Of a stretch of 64,000 nucleotides of DNA, positions 23,640-31,960 are shown piece after piece; position 1 is the stretch's first letter; every line of letters starts with the position of its first letter. The translations under genes were made by a program, and so were the position numbers. Origin of the DNA: Terriglobales bacterium (lineage in GTDB: Bacteria > Acidobacteriota > Terriglobia > Terriglobales > Acidobacteriaceae); assembly GCA_035764005.1 (NCBI GenBank), contig DASTZZ010000125.1, positions 1 to 64,000 of the forward strand, given 5' to 3'. Under the pieces are notes generated by a model, which saw only the letters and a program-made list of their open reading frames with translations, had not been told where the DNA came from and made no database searches.

Positions 23640-23906
23640 ATGAAAAAGAAGGCAATTAGCGTAACGGAAGCGGCGCGCAATTTTGCCGAGTGCGTGAACC
23701 GTGTCCACTATCAGAATGTGCAATATGTGCTGCTTCGCAATGGAACACCACTGGCGAGCTTAATTCCGGAAAGAGTCTGTACTGGACGTGATCTGGCCGA
23801 GGCGCTTGAAGGGTTCGATTTGCCCGCGGCTGAACGCAGGTCTTGGGGAAAGGATCTGCGTGTTGCACGCAAGAAGCTCAAGGCGCCTAAAGACAAATGG
23901 CGATAA
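23640..23906 (+). CDS. Phd/YefM-like antitoxin
   Basis: An 88-residue protein. KAISVTEAARNFAECVNRV is the Phd/YefM N-terminal DNA-binding signature (beta strand plus helix), and QYVLLRNGTPLASLIPE the following beta-hairpin. The C-terminal 35 residues, basic and helical, would wrap and neutralise the toxin. The reading frame overlaps the toxin gene by 10 bases. No Shine-Dalgarno sequence can fit between the operator and the ATG. Confidence 0.85.
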   Translation: MKKKAISVTEAARNFAECVNRVHYQNVQYVLLRNGTPLASLIPERVCTGRDLAEALEGFDLPAAERRSWGKDLRVARKKLKAPKDKWR

Positions 23907-24301
23907 TGATCGATGCCGACGTCATTATCGGTGGAGAAAAAGGCACTTTTGATCTCCGCCGCTGGCTGGCTTCTAGGCCTGATGATGAGTTCGAAATTGC
24001 GGCGATCACCGTAGCAGAGCTGTGGCATGGCGTGGAGCGAGCAACGGGCTCACACCGCCTGCGGCGCCAACAGTATCTTGAGCGAGTGATCGTGACGCTA
24101 TCCGTCGTTCCATATACTCAGCGCACAGCATATGAGCATGCGCGGATCTGGGCGGAGCTCGATTCGCGTGGGAAGATGATCGGCTACTACGATCTGATCG
24201 TCGCGGCAACCGCTTTGGAACGCCGAAGCCAGGTGGCCACCTTCAACAGGCGACACTTTGCTCAAATCGCCGGGTTGGACATCTTGGAGCCGCGTCTCTA
24301 G
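23897..24301 (+). CDS. vapC: VapC-like PIN-domain toxin (ribonuclease)
   Basis: A 134-residue PIN-domain protein. Acidic metal-binding residues are in place: D6/D8 in MIDADVI, E41 in TVAELWHG and D99 in IGYYDLIVAATA, with the conserved N117 in ATFNRRHF. VapC toxins cleave tRNA or rRNA when not bound by the antitoxin. Overlap with the Phd-like antitoxin gene fits a type II toxin-antitoxin operon. The internal Met4 is an alternative start. The key residues suggest an active toxin. Confidence 0.9.
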   Translation: MAIMIDADVIIGGEKGTFDLRRWLASRPDDEFEIAAITVAELWHGVERATGSHRLRRQQYLERVIVTLSVVPYTQRTAYEHARIWAELDSRGKMIGYYDLIVAATALERRSQVATFNRRHFAQIAGLDILEPRL

Positions 24302-24752: not shown

Positions 24753-25109
24753 ATGGGCAAGTTTTGCCTGGCTGCGGTTTCGCTCTGGCATTTGCGGCGC
24801 TTGATCGGGTGTGTGCTGCTTCTCATTTTGGCTGGATTTCCGGCGCACGCTGCTTCTAACCATGCGAGCGCCGTTCTACATATTCAAATCACCGTCGTAC
24901 CGACCGTTCAAACGGCCACCTCCCAACCAAGCTCGACTAGCCCGACAGGCTCAGTCACTTATAATTTGCAGCCGGCAACGACGCCGAAAATGACATCATT
25001 AGTCACGATTCGGCCGATTTCCACTTCAGGTGATACGCAGAACGCGAACCCCAGCGGCCAATCCACAAAACGCGCAGTGCTGCAGACAACAACGGTGATC
25101 GTCGACTAG
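24753..25109 (+). CDS. Small secreted protein adjoining the pilus-like locus
   Basis: A 118-residue protein with a signal peptide (core LIGCVLLLILAGFPAHAA). The mature part starts ASNHASAVLHIQITVVPTVQ, a beta-strand-like stretch, and is then Ser/Thr/Pro/Gln-rich. A perfect AAGGAGG precedes the ATG by 6 bases, which fixes the start over an upstream Met. Its stop codon directly abuts the stop of the convergent usher-like gene. The VLHIQITVVP strand recalls secreted proteins found beside acidobacterial pilus genes, so a function in the same surface structure is possible but unproven. Confidence 0.7.
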   Translation: MGKFCLAAVSLWHLRRLIGCVLLLILAGFPAHAASNHASAVLHIQITVVPTVQTATSQPSSTSPTGSVTYNLQPATTPKMTSLVTIRPISTSGDTQNANPSGQSTKRAVLQTTTVIVD

Positions 25110-28100
25110 CTATTTCGGATTTGCGGTGCTGTTGAGCTTGAGCTGACGCAGACATTGCGCGATCTCGCCCAGCGATGGCAACTGATTGCAAACTTCGCGA
25201 GTCAGCACACCGTCGGGAGGCGCAGTAGGGGCAGCACCGCTTACATCTGCATGGGGCACCGCCGGCGGAATCGGAGGCGCGGACGCAGTATTGTCCGCCG
25301 CAGTCGTTCGGGATGGTGATTCAGTTGGCGCTATTGCTGGTATTGCGGAGACTTGAGTCTCAGCTGCAGAAGGTTCGGCCTGAAGCGAAGCGGGCGGTGT
25401 GGAGGAAACGGGCGGCTCTGTCGTTGTGGGTAAGGCTGGCTTCGTACTCGTCACAGCGGGCACCATCGGCACAGGCTTCATGTCGGTCGGTGTGGTCGCC
25501 ATCGGTGCTGCGTTGTTCCACGTCGCGGTAGTAGGCGTTTTGTCGAATTCGCGACTGAGATAAGGAAGCAAGTCTGAGTTCGTAATCACGATGGTGGCGC
25601 CCTGAATTTGCACTGGCTCTGCAGGCAAGGTCACCATGCCGCTGGGAACGTTCATTCCAGCGGAAACTGGCTTCACCGGAGTAACTGTCACCTTCAATTC
25701 TCCAGCGGGAAGATTGCGCAACAGGAATTTGCCATCCGCATCCGTGGTCGCGGTGGCGGGACCTGCGGCGATCTCTATTCCAGCCAGCGGAACCATCTTG
25801 AACTCCTGAGCAGGCGGTACGGCCGCGGGCTGATTGCCTGCTTTCGACCCTTTTCCCCGCTTGCGATCAGCCGCCTCAGCATTTGGAACTGCAGTCTTCA
25901 GCAGCACGGTTCCCGATATGGAACGAAGGGCCCGAACTGGAATGTCTTGGACGATTGTAGACACCGGGCTGACGTGAACGGCAACCGAATCGACAGGAGT
26001 GAGGTAGTTTGGCGGAATCGATGCTGGATCCAGCGAGAGCTTGTAATCTCCAGGCGGAACATCATCCAACTCAAAATCGCCGGAGCCGGCGGTTTGAATC
26101 TTGCGGACCTCTTTGCCGTTCTCGAGCAGCAGTTGAATATCCTGCATCCCTTTCGAATCCGGCTGGCGGGCGTTGTCGAAGCGCAGATCGTTATAGACGT
26201 TGCCCATAACGCGAGCGAAGTCGAGAATACCGAAGTTGACGACCGCAATTCGCTGCTGAATGAGATCAACATCGGCATCGCTGCGTGTAGTCATGCGTAC
26301 GGGATTGCGGAACTGCGTAAGGGCAATCGACACGTCATGCTGATCGGCGGAAACGGATGAAAACTTATATCGTCCCAGTTCATCAGTAATCGCGACTTCT
26401 CCATCGTCCAGCCTAACTTCGACTCCCTGCATTCCAGGTTCTCCCGAATTGAAATAGCCATTGATGTTGTTGTCGCGGAAGACCCGTCCTTCAATGATTC
26501 GGCTGCGATGGAAGAAGGCCAATGTTCCGGGCGCAGCCATAAAGGTCTTCTGGAATCCGAAGGAAAGAAGGGTTGTCCGTTGGGCTGTGTTGTGAACCGT
26601 ATCCCACAAAAACAGATTGTTGAGCGAGGAGCGGAACTGGAGCGTTGGGCGGAATTGGTAGCTGAACGTGTAGCCAAACGTCTGAGTCCAGTCGCTTGAA
26701 GAGCCGCCGTTTGCAGAGTGAGTTGCAGAGGCGGAAGGACTGAACCGAATCTTGGAGCCGAACTCAAAGATGGTGGAAACCGATATGCTTGTACCCGTTG
26801 GCTGCTCAGCCGCGAGCAGGGCCTTTATCTCGGGAGGAAAATTCGACGAGTCAATGAACCCTGACGGATCAGCCAGGAATTGGGCCTGCAGTGCGGGAGA
26901 GAGAAGGTTGAGCTCCTGGTTTAATTTTGACAGAAGCGAAGGCTGCACGCGGTCGTGCTCCACCCCTAGCAGTACAGTGTGGCGCTTAATCGGGAAGCTT
27001 ACCGTATCGCGAAGCGTCAGCCGGTCTTCCGAATTGATTTGGAGTGGATCCTGAATCGATCCGACAGTGACCTCTGCATTATTTCCCACCTGTGGTGCGA
27101 TTTGAGAATTCAGCGACACATCGTATCGGTTTCCGGTAGAGCTTGTACTGGTGAATCCTCCGGTATTCCGACTGTAGATGTAGTAGAAGCCGAGGTTCTC
27201 ACCGCGCGAGATTTGGTAAGAAATTCCCGGACTTAAGTAATCGCTGCTTCCGGGGACGCGGTAGATGAGTCCGGGAGTAATGTCGGTGTGCTCATAGTAC
27301 AGCCGTTGACTGAGGCGCTGCGTAATCCTGTAGTCCGTCTCTCCTTTGTAGGTGGACGTGCCGGAGAACAATGACTGGAGTTGCTGCAGCGGAAAGGTCT
27401 GCGTCGCTGCGATCGCGCTGGCGTACGCCGTCAAGCGATAAGAAGCATAGGAAAAATCGCCGCGCAGCATACGGCTGCCATCGTTGGCATATCCGGCTTG
27501 TCCGCCAAGTAATAGATCTTTTGTCAAGTGATAGCTGACGCCGCCAGTCTCCATGGCATAGGCGTTCCTGCGAATGCCCACAGGGAAATTCACCGGAATG
27601 TTTACGTAGCTTGCTCCGCCATAAAAGTTGAGCTTGTCAGTCTGCTCACGGCGAAAGCTGAATCCGGCCACATCGCGTGTACCGTTCAACGACAGGAAGT
27701 AATAAGGAGGTGTACTTCCTCCAAATAGCGAAAACTGATTACGATTGGAGCCGAGAGTGATTCCGGCGCCACGTAGCTCAACGTAGTTTCCAGAAGCAAA
27801 GTTGTTGATTCTGTCTTCTGGAGTTGCTCCTGTGATCGTCTGACTGAAATCGATCAGGCTGAATGAGAAGCCAGGTGAACGAAAGTTTAGTCCCGCGGTA
27901 CGCAGATTGGTTCCATGGCCGCCGAATTGATTGTTGTCCTCTACCTGGCTGTTGAAGTTCATCGCATGATCCCCAACGTGCTGTTCCCAGGCGAGGCTGC
28001 TCAGCAGTGTGTGGTTAGAGCTGTTGCCCGAAGTTGTCTGTACGTCTGAAGAGATGACACCGTGAGCCATTTCCGCCTGCCTGCGAAGCAGGCTCGGAGG

Positions 28101-28424
28101 TATCACGTTAACTGGTCGGTCGATCACATGGACCACAATGCTTACAGGCGCGCCATTTACGTATGCCAGAGCCACGGTTTCGCCGCGCGTTAGACCGACG
28201 AATTCGATCGTGTCACTCCCAATTTGGGCATGGGCGATATCTTCATCCAGCACAACCACTGTGCTCACTCCTGGAGCCACAATCGTTCTGGTGGATTTCC
28301 AGTAAACATCAACGCTCGATGGTGTCGTGGGTTCTACCGCGAACGCGCCGAGGGCGCACACGAAGATCATCAGCAGCAATCGAATGGCTGCTCCGACCAA
28401 ATCGTCGTAGCGCTTCAAGGGCAT
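25110..28424 (-). CDS. Usher-like outer-membrane protein with secretin-type N-terminus and SdrD_B-like domains
   Basis: An 1104-residue protein. After a signal peptide (~1-30), residues 38-107 (VDVYWKSTRTIVAPGVSTVV to VIDRPVNVIPP) match the N-terminal domain of pilus secretins (T2SS-T3SS_pil_N). Residues ~130-640 are a long run of alternating hydrophobic and Tyr/Ser-rich strands typical of an outer-membrane beta-barrel of usher size. Three SdrD_B/carboxypeptidase-regulatory-like domains follow, starting near IEGRVFRDNNINGYFNSGEP, MGNVYNDLRFDNARQ and ISGTVLLKTAVP. The C-terminus is a Pro/Thr-rich tail with EVCNQLPSLGEIAQCL. It is preceded by chaperone and pilin-like genes, so I infer an usher role. 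Classical FimD domain order is not present. Confidence 0.7.
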   Translation of the reverse strand: MPLKRYDDLVGAAIRLLLMIFVCALGAFAVEPTTPSSVDVYWKSTRTIVAPGVSTVVVLDEDIAHAQIGSDTIEFVGLTRGETVALAYVNGAPVSIVVHVIDRPVNVIPPSLLRRQAEMAHGVISSDVQTTSGNSSNHTLLSSLAWEQHVGDHAMNFNSQVEDNNQFGGHGTNLRTAGLNFRSPGFSFSLIDFSQTITGATPEDRINNFASGNYVELRGAGITLGSNRNQFSLFGGSTPPYYFLSLNGTRDVAGFSFRREQTDKLNFYGGASYVNIPVNFPVGIRRNAYAMETGGVSYHLTKDLLLGGQAGYANDGSRMLRGDFSYASYRLTAYASAIAATQTFPLQQLQSLFSGTSTYKGETDYRITQRLSQRLYYEHTDITPGLIYRVPGSSDYLSPGISYQISRGENLGFYYIYSRNTGGFTSTSSTGNRYDVSLNSQIAPQVGNNAEVTVGSIQDPLQINSEDRLTLRDTVSFPIKRHTVLLGVEHDRVQPSLLSKLNQELNLLSPALQAQFLADPSGFIDSSNFPPEIKALLAAEQPTGTSISVSTIFEFGSKIRFSPSASATHSANGGSSSDWTQTFGYTFSYQFRPTLQFRSSLNNLFLWDTVHNTAQRTTLLSFGFQKTFMAAPGTLAFFHRSRIIEGRVFRDNNINGYFNSGEPGMQGVEVRLDDGEVAITDELGRYKFSSVSADQHDVSIALTQFRNPVRMTTRSDADVDLIQQRIAVVNFGILDFARVMGNVYNDLRFDNARQPDSKGMQDIQLLLENGKEVRKIQTAGSGDFELDDVPPGDYKLSLDPASIPPNYLTPVDSVAVHVSPVSTIVQDIPVRALRSISGTVLLKTAVPNAEAADRKRGKGSKAGNQPAAVPPAQEFKMVPLAGIEIAAGPATATTDADGKFLLRNLPAGELKVTVTPVKPVSAGMNVPSGMVTLPAEPVQIQGATIVITNSDLLPYLSREFDKTPTTATWNNAAPMATTPTDMKPVPMVPAVTSTKPALPTTTEPPVSSTPPASLQAEPSAAETQVSAIPAIAPTESPSRTTAADNTASAPPIPPAVPHADVSGAAPTAPPDGVLTREVCNQLPSLGEIAQCLRQLKLNSTANPK

Positions 28425-28438
28425 GAATCAGGTTCTCG

Positions 28439-29260
28439 TCAATTACTTGCTGTTTTCGCTGGAACAGTAAATGCGATCTGGCGTGTCTCAACCTGGGAAC
28501 CGCCATAAACGAACGACAGCACAGCGGTGTAGTCGCCTGGCTTGAGATCGCCATTCCATTCCACCTTCATCGAATCTTTTTGCCCGGGTAAAAATCGCTT
28601 TGCATCGCTCTCCGCTTTGGCAACGAGCTTGTGTTCCGGATTCAGGATCGCCAATTTCGCCTGCGGAAACACGTGAGTGTTGCTCTTGTTGTCGACTGAG
28701 AACGTAAGTCTTAGCGCCTGATTGTCACTGGGCGGCACTAGTTTCAAGTCGTCGAGATTTACGTTGTAAGCTTCGGTGTCCTTTGCCGTGAGCAACACCA
28801 GGCATCCGAGCCGCATGTTCGTGAATATCTGCTTCCCATCCTGAGTCTGCTGGTTACTGGCGACCGGCTTCGATTCGACAAACAGAACGGCGTAATAGCC
28901 GCCACGAGCGTCCGCCGGAGGGGTGACTATTGCCTTCAGCTTTTGTGAAGCGCCAGAGGCCACTTCAAATTTGTCAGGAACAAACTGGATCCAGTTGGCG
29001 GCGGAGCGTGGAGAAGTACCCGGCGCATTGAATGTCTTTTCGTTCTTGTCGTTGTACCAGAAGTCAGTGATCTGGACATGTAGCTCAACCGCCTGGCTGC
29101 CTTTGTTTTGCACCGTGAGCGAATACTCAAACGGAACGCCAGGTTTGAAGTCCTCGACGATCTGCGCGGGCGCGAGCGCCAGCGATTGCGCAAACAACGG
29201 AGTCACGGCTGCCAGCAGCAGCGCAGCAAAAAAAAGCTTGGAAACAGTAGTTTTCATCAT
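28439..29260 (-). CDS. PapD-like periplasmic pilus chaperone
   Basis: A 273-residue protein with a signal peptide (LFFAALLLAAVTPLFAQ). The N-terminal domain (SLALAPAQIVEDFKPGVPFE, SLTVQNKGSQAVELHVQI) has the strand order of the first Ig-like domain of periplasmic chaperones. WIQFVPDKFEVASGASQKLK resembles the F1-G1 region, which donates a strand to subunits, and GGYYAVLFVESKP ends that domain. A second Ig-like domain (LRLTFSVDNKSNTHVFPQAK, VEWNGDLKPGDYTAVLSF) follows. It overlaps the upstream gene by 4 bases (ATGA) and precedes the usher-like gene by 14, so all are one transcript. Confidence 0.75.
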   Translation of the reverse strand: MMKTTVSKLFFAALLLAAVTPLFAQSLALAPAQIVEDFKPGVPFEYSLTVQNKGSQAVELHVQITDFWYNDKNEKTFNAPGTSPRSAANWIQFVPDKFEVASGASQKLKAIVTPPADARGGYYAVLFVESKPVASNQQTQDGKQIFTNMRLGCLVLLTAKDTEAYNVNLDDLKLVPPSDNQALRLTFSVDNKSNTHVFPQAKLAILNPEHKLVAKAESDAKRFLPGQKDSMKVEWNGDLKPGDYTAVLSFVYGGSQVETRQIAFTVPAKTASN

Positions 29261-30435
29261 TGCACCGTGATTGTGTAAGTGAGTGTTGCCTTGTCTGCTC
29301 CTGTGAACGAACCACCGCCGTTCGCGTTCGAAACAAACAATCCTAGATATTCCGTTATGGAACTTCCGTTACTGGCATTGCCTGTGATTTGCGTAGGTGC
29401 GCCTGAGCTCTTTGAGATTGCGTTGTAACCTGCGAATTGACTTTGAGAGTCATATAGCTTCAGCACAGCCGGATGGACGAAGTCGGTACTTACGTAGACC
29501 GTGATTTTCGTGTTGCTGAAACTTGAAAAACCACTGAAAGCCGGTTGGAGTAGATACGGCGTCGAATAGATCACTCCACCCGGAGCTTGTCCATTAATAA
29601 CGGTCAGGCCTGCTCCCGGACCGACGCCCAGTCCGTTCACAGTTCCAAAATTGGCGGCATAGTCGGTGGTTCCTCCAGCAGAAATCGGGAGTCCCGAAGG
29701 AGCAGTCGCTAGTTGAAGCTGGATTGCCTTTTGAATCGTTGTGCCTGGAGTATCTAAATTCAACAACGTATGACTGATGATTCCGTGCCGATTGTCATAA
29801 ACGTCGAACATCACCGTGGCCGTGTCTGGACTCACGATTGAGCCGTTGAAGCTCTGCACCAGGATTCCAAGATATGCGGTGTAATTCGTGCTCGTCGTTT
29901 GCAGAGGCAGTACGACAATATCGGCGGCCTGAGTATTCGGAAGTGCTGTATAACTGGCGAAGGTATTGCACGGACCTGGATACGCGCAGCTCATAAGTTG
30001 GATCACGCTGCTGGAATTGGAGAATGCAGAAGATATGTACGCATCAACTTCTGCAGGGTGGCCTGGATTCGCACCATTCAACACAATCGTGTATGGCGTG
30101 TAGTAAAACTCGCCACCTGCGACTGCGATCTTTTGTAGGCCGATGGGATTGCCAATTCCCAGACCATTTACAGCGCCGAAGCCCGCGTGATATGTCGGCG
30201 TAGGATTCGCAGGATTCGGACCAGAGAAAGTGATGCCTGCTCCGGAGGTCGCCAGGCCAATCGTTTGCGCGCTCGTGGGGAGTGCAACCGTGAAGAAACT
30301 ACAAGCTAGAAGAGTTAGGACGATCTCACGAGAGCGGTGAATTTGCTTCCCCAAACGCGACAATCCACGCTTCCCTTGATGCACTTTGCAGTCGGTCGGA
30401 GTGGATTGTTCACGTTGCTGAGGATTGTTGAGCAT
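29257..30435 (-). CDS. Two-domain pilin-like secreted protein (candidate tip adhesin)
   Basis: A 392-residue protein with a basic N-terminal extension and a signal sequence (VLTLLACSFFTVALPTSAQ). Two domains of about 165 residues share motifs with each other and with the 207-residue pilin-like protein encoded upstream. Examples are GAVNGLGIG versus GTVNGLGVG versus GTVDALAVS, and TEYLGLFVSNANGGG versus TRYIGVDIANTNGAG. Both proteins end with an alternating strand (TYTITVQ/TFTLTVN), as expected for donor-strand assembled subunits. One disulfide is possible (SCAYPGPC). A tandem-domain subunit is typical of a tip adhesin. A hairpin precedes the gene. Confidence 0.7.
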   Translation of the reverse strand: MLNNPQQREQSTPTDCKVHQGKRGLSRLGKQIHRSREIVLTLLACSFFTVALPTSAQTIGLATSGAGITFSGPNPANPTPTYHAGFGAVNGLGIGNPIGLQKIAVAGGEFYYTPYTIVLNGANPGHPAEVDAYISSAFSNSSSVIQLMSCAYPGPCNTFASYTALPNTQAADIVVLPLQTTSTNYTAYLGILVQSFNGSIVSPDTATVMFDVYDNRHGIISHTLLNLDTPGTTIQKAIQLQLATAPSGLPISAGGTTDYAANFGTVNGLGVGPGAGLTVINGQAPGGVIYSTPYLLQPAFSGFSSFSNTKITVYVSTDFVHPAVLKLYDSQSQFAGYNAISKSSGAPTQITGNASNGSSITEYLGLFVSNANGGGSFTGADKATLTYTITVQ

Positions 30436-30440
30436 TTCAT

Positions 30441-30466
30441 TTCCGGTTTTTGGGGGAGAACCGGAA
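30441..30466 (-). promoter_or_regulatory. Intercistronic stem-loop between pilin-like and tip-like genes
   Basis: An 8-bp stem (TTCCGGTT/AACCGGAA) with a 10-base loop lies 8 bases after the stop of the pilin-like gene and just before the start codon of the next. There is no U-tract. It could protect the upstream message end or reduce translation of the downstream gene, giving more of the first protein. Confidence 0.5.
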
Positions 30467-30474
30467 ACCCGAGC

Positions 30475-31098
30475 TTAGTTGACGGTTAATGTGAAAGTGA
30501 CGGTAGCTGTCTTCGCGCCATTCATACCCGCGCCGTTGGTGTTCGCAATGTCCACACCGATGTAGCGAGTCAGAGCCGTTCCGCTGGCAACTGCGCTGGC
30601 GATCGTGTCCTGAGCAGCCACATTCGTGCTCAGTGCCGAAAATCCATTTCCAGCCGGAGCAGCAGCCGAGTTTGCGGTATCACGAACGATCTTGACGTTC
30701 GCAGTGGTGAACGGAGTCGAAACATACGCGGTGATTACTGGATTCGCTGCGCTTGGCTGCGAAGCGTACGTCGGGTTCAGTTGATAGTCGGTGTAGTAGA
30801 CAGCATCGGTGCCGGTTTGCGCAGGAGTGAACTTCTGGCCGCAGAGCGCGTTGCTGACCGCCAAAGCATCGACCGTACCAAAGTCCATGGTGTAGTCCGG
30901 CGGCGCTCCACCGTTTGCGATTGCGCAGGCTGTTCCTGACGCGCCCTGGGTCAATGTGAGCTGAACCACAGAAACGACGTTTGCCGAAACCTGAAGTGTC
31001 GGTGAAACCGCGTTCGCATTTGTCGCGCTCGTGGCAGCAAATGTTGTGGAAGCCATCGTCAACAGGGTCGCCAAGATGGCCAGTGATGTGCGTTTCAT
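30475..31098 (-). CDS. Pilin-like secreted subunit (candidate major subunit)
   Basis: A 207-residue protein with a signal peptide (LAILATLLTMASTTFA). The mature protein starts with SPTLQVSANVVSVVQLTLTQ, a strand pattern like spore-coat-U/Csu-type or alternate chaperone-usher pilins. It has two cysteines (C58, C86) that can form the usual subunit disulfide and ends in TATVTFTLTVN. GAGGAG nine bases before the ATG fixes the start; an earlier in-frame Met lacks one. It is the first gene of a four-gene minus-strand operon (subunit, tandem subunit, chaperone, usher-like). Being first and single-domain suggests the major shaft protein. Confidence 0.75.
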   Translation of the reverse strand: MKRTSLAILATLLTMASTTFAATSATNANAVSPTLQVSANVVSVVQLTLTQGASGTACAIANGGAPPDYTMDFGTVDALAVSNALCGQKFTPAQTGTDAVYYTDYQLNPTYASQPSAANPVITAYVSTPFTTANVKIVRDTANSAAAPAGNGFSALSTNVAAQDTIASAVASGTALTRYIGVDIANTNGAGMNGAKTATVTFTLTVN

Positions 31099-31960
31099 CA
31101 GTTTGTTCTCCTCTTGAGTAATCCCTGTTGCCACTCGACGCCTCTGTCGCGTGGTTTAGGGGTAAATGCAAATCAGTACGGCTTTTACTGCGATGTTTCC
31201 GCCGCGTCAGCGGGCGCAAGGAACCGTTCCGTCCCGTGCACCTCGTCAACTACAGCCCGCACCTCGACCCAATTTGGGAATTCTTGAGGTTCCGAAAGGG
31301 TCTTGTACTTCGGGGTGCGTGGCCCAACATTAGGACGCTCTAATCCAGGGGTCAATGTAACGGGCGGGTGCGCACGAGTAACCTCCACCTTCGTGGAAGC
31401 TCAATGAGAATGGCAGTTCAGGTTAAAGATTCGGATCGCGAATGATGACCGAAGATATTGAAAACATGATGCTTGAACACGTCCTAAGATGGGAATTTGG
31501 CTCTCTGAATGCGATTGGAACATCGCCACTGCTAAGCGAAATCACTGGTAACCACCGTCACCAACGACATTGACGATTTCGATGCCTCAGCCGAGCAGGA
31601 TTGATCCTGGAGCTAGCGCAAAATTACCGAAGACGAGACAAAATTGCTCTTCCCAAATGACACAACCCGCTGCGGGAAATTTCACCGCAGCGGGTTGCCG
31701 GTACGCTGTTGAGATTGGCTTGAGGCGGTCACTCTATGTGAATGGCCTCTGCAAACCTCCAAACTAGCGGAGTTCGCCAGGTCTTTAGAGCTGAACGCCC
31801 TAAGCCTCAGCCACCTCACGTTTATTACTACTACCATCAGAACTTTGCATATGTATGGATCGCCCTCCTTTCCCGTGTAAGCCAAGAATAATGGGCTGAT
31901 TACCAGAAAGTCAATGGAGATCGGGTGATCGGGCCATCGGGTGATCTGCTGAAGTAAACA
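31099..31960. other. Gene-free stretch upstream of the pilus-like operon
   Basis: It must contain the operon promoter. A minus-strand frame starting with GTG (31388 to 31185, 67 codons) has fairly protein-like sequence (PNVGPRTPKYKTLSEPQEFP) but no family match, so I leave it unassigned. I looked for a cyclic-di-GMP riboswitch and saw none of its conserved core. A strong hairpin sits at 31664-31696, and a GATCGGGCCATCGGG word at about 31930. Confidence 0.45.
31664..31696. terminator. Strong perfect hairpin, terminator-like
   Basis: AACCCGCTGCGG pairs perfectly over 12 bp with CCGCAGCGGGTT around the loop GAAATTTCA. No U-run follows on either strand (TGTCATTTGG on the minus strand is the better side). 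It may be an orphan terminator of a lost gene. Confidence 0.45.

Follow-up and report, generated by a model that had tools for sequence, protein, structure and literature searches.

The initial annotation of a 64,000-nucleotide stretch of a Terriglobales bacterium genome (hereafter the window) read four of its genes as a chaperone-usher-like pilus locus with an unusual usher. Acidobacteria rank among the most abundant bacteria of soils. The question raised by this locus is whether it does encode a chaperone-usher system and, if so, how far that system departs from the classical ones. The published usher surveys consulted record ushers in other phyla and lack this acidobacterial clade, and no description of the system was found in open-access papers.

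Organization of the locus

The minus-strand operon encodes, in this order, a pilin, a two-domain (tandem) subunit, a chaperone with two Ig-like domains and, as the last product, a large barrel protein (Table 1). The packing of the four genes is as tight as first described, with a 4-base overlap between the tandem subunit and chaperone genes (29257-29260) and a gap of 14 bases between the chaperone and usher genes (28425-28438). Beside the usher stop ends a fifth gene, located on the plus strand and conserved at the locus, which starts with the ATG at position 24753, the left limit of the segment first annotated, and encodes a small secreted protein. Promoter and terminator scans of the locus gave nothing above chance. 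A minor feature is the hairpin separating the pilin and tandem subunit genes, similar versions of which occur in the related loci L056 and L096 and are not evident in all relatives; it could set transcript ratios, as is the case in other pilus operons.

Model libraries recognized little of this operon. Pfam reported SdrD_B and carboxypeptidase-regulatory-like domains alone in the usher-like protein, sub-threshold Ig-like matches in the chaperone, no match in the window pilin and tandem subunit, and stray weak matches among the pilin homologues, while a search of PHROGs returned nothing useful.

Elsewhere in the window, two overlapping plus-strand ORFs (23640-23906 and 23897-24301) probably form a type II toxin-antitoxin pair, consisting of a PIN-domain toxin (PF01850) and a small ORF as its antitoxin-like partner. 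By inspection of the ORF translations, the minus-strand segment 20394-22137 seems to encode an ECF-type sigma factor, then a putative zinc-finger anti-sigma protein.

Table 1. Coordinates of the features of the locus in the window.
Feature	Position	Strand	Details
Pilin-like subunit	30475-31098	-	207 aa from ATG; GTG alternative at 31134
Intercistronic hairpin, pilin/tandem subunit	30439-30468	-	-11.7 kcal/mol
Two-domain (tandem) subunit	29257-30435	-	392 aa
Periplasmic chaperone, two Ig-like domains, PapD-superfamily-like	28439-29260	-	
Usher-like outer-membrane assembly protein	25110-28424	-	1104 aa
N-terminal domain resembling T2SS-T3SS_pil_N (PF13629)	28110-28319	-	usher aa 36-105
Predicted beta-barrel, ~26 strands	26535-28067	-	usher aa 120-630, AlphaFold2
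Conserved helical insert, 48 residues	26799-26942	-	usher aa 495-542, between predicted strands 21 and 22
D1, extra SdrD_B-type domain	26220-26498	-	usher aa 643-735, Pfam SdrD_B
D2-D3, counterparts of usher CTD1-CTD2	25545-26219	-	usher aa 736-960
Pro/Thr-rich C-terminal tail	25113-25544	-	begins after about usher residue 962
Small secreted protein, fifth gene	24753-25109	+	118 residues

Pilin and tandem subunit

The pilin carries a signal peptide followed by an N-terminal extension with alternating hydrophobic residues (SPTLQVSANV), and it ends in an F-strand-like segment (ATVTFTLTVN); both the extension and the C-terminal strand are conserved (n = 9 sequences). In the tandem subunit, an extra strand lies between domain 1 and a pilin-like domain 2. 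Alignment showed that the pilin is homologous to this second domain, that both stop at the last strand, and that the pilin extension (VSPTLQVSANV) falls opposite the linker strand that comes behind domain 1, an arrangement that, on alignment and model, would be fitting for donor-strand logic.

The mature tandem subunit was modelled by AlphaFold2 from 11 sequences (mean pLDDT 79). VIA ranked a CfaB-CfaB fusion (Z 10.5) as closest to this model, ahead of full-length FimH (8.8), the CupB6 tip adhesin and EcpA (8.1 each) and CsuA/B (7.4), and CfaE-CfaB and FimH were among the leaders in Foldseek (E about 2e-6). Since some unrelated Ig-like proteins also attain Z 7-9, the ranking weighs more than any single score; by this ranking the modelled tandem subunit is structurally closest to chaperone-usher subunits. 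The initial annotation had expected the subunits to have an incomplete Ig fold and a donor strand; this, with the donor strand at the N-terminus, is borne out at the level of prediction by the alignment of the pilin with domain 2, the strand map and the structural matches. As the tandem protein lacks a free N-terminal extension and its domain 1 is seemingly completed in cis, a tip position is indicated, and the protein is most likely a FimH-like tip that would start the fibre.

The same two Ig-like proteins could instead be exported singly by the barrel and the chaperone, as surface adhesins or matrix proteins, without donor-strand polymerisation. Their low number (two) would agree with such a role, as would the fact that no fibre is known, but the conserved, separate N-terminal extension of the pilin occupies the place of the tandem protein's inter-domain strand, in several relatives the operon contains three or four small genes of the pilin-like kind, and the top structural match of the tandem subunit is a donor-strand-linked pilin dimer. 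We consider individual export improbable and retain the reading of the two proteins as fibre subunits.

Chaperone

A profile built from 14 chaperone relatives retrieved the chaperones that adjoin PF00577 ushers (loci L118, L119, L121 and L123-L126) with hmmsearch E-values of 1.7e-21 to 7e-10, and aligned with them in hhalign at 99.4% over 210 columns. PapD_N was matched by 4 of the 14 relatives and not by the window chaperone itself. On these sequence comparisons the protein is a PapD-type two-domain chaperone. Against the PDB, the profile matched the WxL-interacting protein, a Gram-positive two-Ig protein (E 1.3e-5), which is a further point for individual export and probably reflects a fold-level or deep relationship.

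In the archaic chaperone CsuC, the carboxylate anchor consists of Arg89, Tyr196 and Arg174 (PMC4654587). Inspection of our chaperone by eye revealed no clear counterpart of the anchor residues of archaic or classical chaperones. An arginine or lysine at residue 150 of the window chaperone is invariant (14 of 14); its equation with PapD Lys112 was dropped, the alignment being ambiguous and archaic chaperones anchoring differently.

Barrel of the usher-like protein

Usher residues 31-962 were modelled by AlphaFold2 from 15 sequences, with middling quality (mean pLDDT 64, pTM 0.41). The model comprises an N-terminal beta domain, an unbroken run of about 26 long strands spanning residues 120-630 and the C-terminal domains, in line with the continuation as a predicted beta-barrel that had first been proposed. 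With this model, the first eight Foldseek matches were FimD (E 3e-13 to 1e-9), PapC came further down, and the first siderophore receptor stood at E 5e-9. VIA placed PapC first (Z 16.5; 465 aligned residues; model 83-919, i.e. barrel plus CTDs), and because other large outer-membrane barrels scored Z 14-15.7, the VIA Z-score alone does not discriminate. The structural alignment to FimD/PapC begins past the NTD (model residue 83, FimD residue 135).

At the profile level, PF00577 was matched by none of 13 relatives, a PF00577 search of the source genome yielded nothing above the cut-off, and the barrel-only profiles aligned with classical ushers in hhalign at 0.3% (close clade) and 21 to 25% (wider family), that is, without secure homology. 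For the relatives L023/L026, hhalign gave an alignment to classical ushers of 691 columns at 97.7%; they show a plug-like stretch by eye and form a bridge to the classical ushers via their C-terminal domains. According to the initial annotation, a plugged barrel of at least 20 strands was to be expected: the predicted number of strands agrees with this (~26), whereas no beta-sandwich plug of the classical kind was found inside the barrel of the model, where the conserved helical insert at residues 495-542 is the only candidate plug or gate.

N-terminal and C-terminal domains of the usher-like protein

The protein had been said to start with the domain of pilus secretins. PF13629 has no match in the window usher, and its search in the source genome gave nothing above the cut-off; in the clade member L164, the N-terminus matches profile positions 3-71 of 72 with E 0.0017 and 18.4 bits, where the cut-off is 23 bits; in the genome search the score was 23.1 bits. 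By hhalign, the usher N-domain aligned with secretin N-domains over 67 columns at a probability of only 4%, the controls giving 0.7% or less. The idea of a secretin-type N-domain in place of the FimD NTD is therefore kept as only suggestive, on the strength of the sub-cut-off likeness in L164 and not of the window protein.

At the other end, the three SdrD_B/CarboxypepD_reg stretches (Pfam) and the proline-rich tail noted earlier are present. Most relatives end near residue 962, and their tail is missing or of another kind, so that the tail is lineage-specific. D2-D3 matched classical CTD1-CTD2 in hhalign at 70% for the close clade and 96% for the wider family, and D1 matched the usher CTDs weakly (13%). 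As controls, the C-terminal blocks gave 0.2 to 5.6% against LptD and a TonB receptor, and comparison of the usher CTDs with an unrelated SdrD_B protein from the source genome gave 2.1%. The C-terminal blocks match that same unrelated protein through D1 (93 to 96%); D1 is a generic SdrD_B domain. From these profile comparisons, counterparts of CTD1-CTD2 are present after the barrel. With CTD1-CTD2 matched by the final two domains of the protein, the domain order is nearer to FimD than had been held: the succession of barrel and CTDs matches FimD, and the difference from FimD/PapC lies in the N-domain, the plug and the extra C-terminal domain.

These data also bear on the possibility that ushers and the large protein are unrelated, the latter being an outer-membrane barrel with acquired SdrD_B domains whose likeness to FimD is a convergence among large barrels. 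The absence of a secure barrel-only match to classical ushers and the high VIA scores of other large barrels speak for it, as does the strand number, since the LptD barrel has 26 strands too. Against this, it is D2-D3 that match CTD1-CTD2, which the unrelated SdrD_B protein does not; no profile similarity to LptD or a TonB receptor was found; FimD tops the Foldseek ranking; and the partnership with a PapD-like chaperone is constant. We regard such a convergence as very unlikely, and treat the protein as an usher counterpart hereafter.

Conservation and distribution

A gene-order survey across Acidobacteria, a check proposed in the initial annotation, recovered the order pilin-tandem subunit-chaperone-usher in about 12 acidobacterial genomes. 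Both order and sequence are kept in loci L056, L057, L059, L062, L068, L070, L096-L101, L103 and L106, while in L060, L061, L063, L072, L104 and L105 a part is missing or the contig end is reached. This conservation of order and sequence across loci indicates that the arrangement is not due to chance. The chaperone gene adjoins a large barrel-type gene on the same strand in 49 of the 53 fetched loci, a count whose underlying models were built partly from the same loci; L064, L066, L077 and L078, which lie outside all usher models, match nevertheless. In the fetched loci the two genes usually overlap or sit within a few dozen bases of each other.

The source genome has one copy of the operon. 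Used as a BLAST-type query, the chaperone found matches in 13 of 199 genomes of the phylum. PF00577 ushers are present in 9 of these 199 genomes, and among them the usher barrel as a BLAST query matched itself alone. The chaperone profile found matches in 53 of 399 genomes of the class, a figure to which some chaperones from ordinary PF00577 loci and some spurious low scorers (e.g. L127, L128) contribute. A first GTDB scan with the single protein returned no matches, and relatives were later found with profiles and gene neighbourhood. In the GTDB scan, the close clade comprised assemblies of soil Acidobacteriaceae, Terriglobia and Candidatus Angelobacter; phyla beyond Acidobacteriota were covered by the close-clade patterns of that scan alone. 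The four-gene family recurs across many acidobacterial families and is missed by the usher and pilin models of Pfam and NCBIfam.

Some contigs deserve a remark. Those of L070 and L106 are seemingly the same or nearly identical, and in both the usher gene is broken into two reading frames (L070:9256-11648 and L106:6429-8821), by a frameshift or an assembly error. An open frame in L108 (2-4909) joins part of an usher barrel to a DUF11-like surface protein rich in repeats, which looks like a chimeric contig.

The fifth gene

At its N-terminus the fifth-gene protein resembles a donor strand (ASAVLHIQITVVPTV), and its C-terminus is beta-strand-like. Homologues accompany the operons of L057, L059, L060, L062, L068/L100, L070/L106, L096-L099, L101, L102 and L104; most close-clade loci thus have one, as a rule downstream of the usher in convergent orientation, and in L070/L106 it lies upstream. 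The homologues have in common a short, donor-strand-like strand motif (AxAxLHIxVTVVPxV) and a strand-like C-terminus. As a guess, this protein might act as a terminator or anchor of the fibre.

Proposed mechanism

Overall, the locus is probably a divergent chaperone-usher fibre operon. Independent evidence from sequences and models supports a chaperone-usher logic for each of the four genes, and homology to chaperone-usher systems is probable. To judge from their signal peptides, the pilin and the tandem subunit would be exported by Sec. Each pilin domain would lack its last strand, and the chaperone would lend one, preventing aggregation. The chaperone-subunit complex would then dock at the barrel protein in the outer membrane, where the N-terminal domain may stand in for the classical NTD and the D2-D3 domains, given their computed similarity, may act as CTD1-CTD2. 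The N-terminal strand of an incoming pilin would take the place of the chaperone's strand in the subunit before it. The fibre would be extruded through the barrel, headed by the tandem subunit as a FimH-like tip in which the linker strand completes domain 1 in cis. Fibre formation itself we infer, the locus being known here from sequence and models.

As to the separate acidobacterial assembly class suggested at the outset, a distinct acidobacterial clade is supported, and a wholly separate class is not established. Because PF00577 does not recognize the usher and the classical plug is absent from the model, we describe the system as a divergent variant outside any named class. A separate chaperone-usher class of Acidobacteriota, with an usher that dispenses with the classical NTD and beta-sandwich plug and in which a secretin-type N-domain docks, the helical insert gates and the fifth protein terminates or anchors the fibre, is conceivable and, in our judgement, rather doubtful.

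Comparison with known systems

The usher NTD and plug are thought to be central to docking and gating. If our reading is true, both are replaceable, and the minimal requirements for fibre assembly become testable. FimD is composed of an NTD, a barrel with a plug, CTD1 and CTD2 (PMC3960871). With FimD/PapC and Csu, the present system appears, on sequence and model, to share (i) the chaperone superfamily, (ii) a pilin with an N-terminal extension and a missing last strand, (iii) a two-domain tip-like subunit, and (iv) a large barrel followed by CTD1-CTD2. It differs from them in the lack of PF00577 and pilin-model matches, in its other N-terminal domain, in the absence of a beta-sandwich plug from the model, in one extra C-terminal domain preceding the CTDs, and in its number of predicted strands (~26 versus 24). 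Pilus secretins with T2SS-T3SS_pil_N possibly have the N-terminal domain in common with it, as judged from the below-cut-off match of L164; unlike these, no secretin domain was found here, and the barrel is predicted to be of the single-chain usher type. The tandem subunit resembles the FimH, CupB6 and CfaE tip adhesins, at about 10% identity, in having two Ig-like domains of which the second is a pilin domain, and in a mature protein devoid of an N-terminal extension. Finally, the chaperone shares its two Ig-like domains and a significant profile match with the WxL-interacting protein (DUF916/DUF3324), but while the latter belongs to a Gram-positive cell-wall context, the chaperone described here is tied to an outer-membrane barrel and to pilin-like genes.
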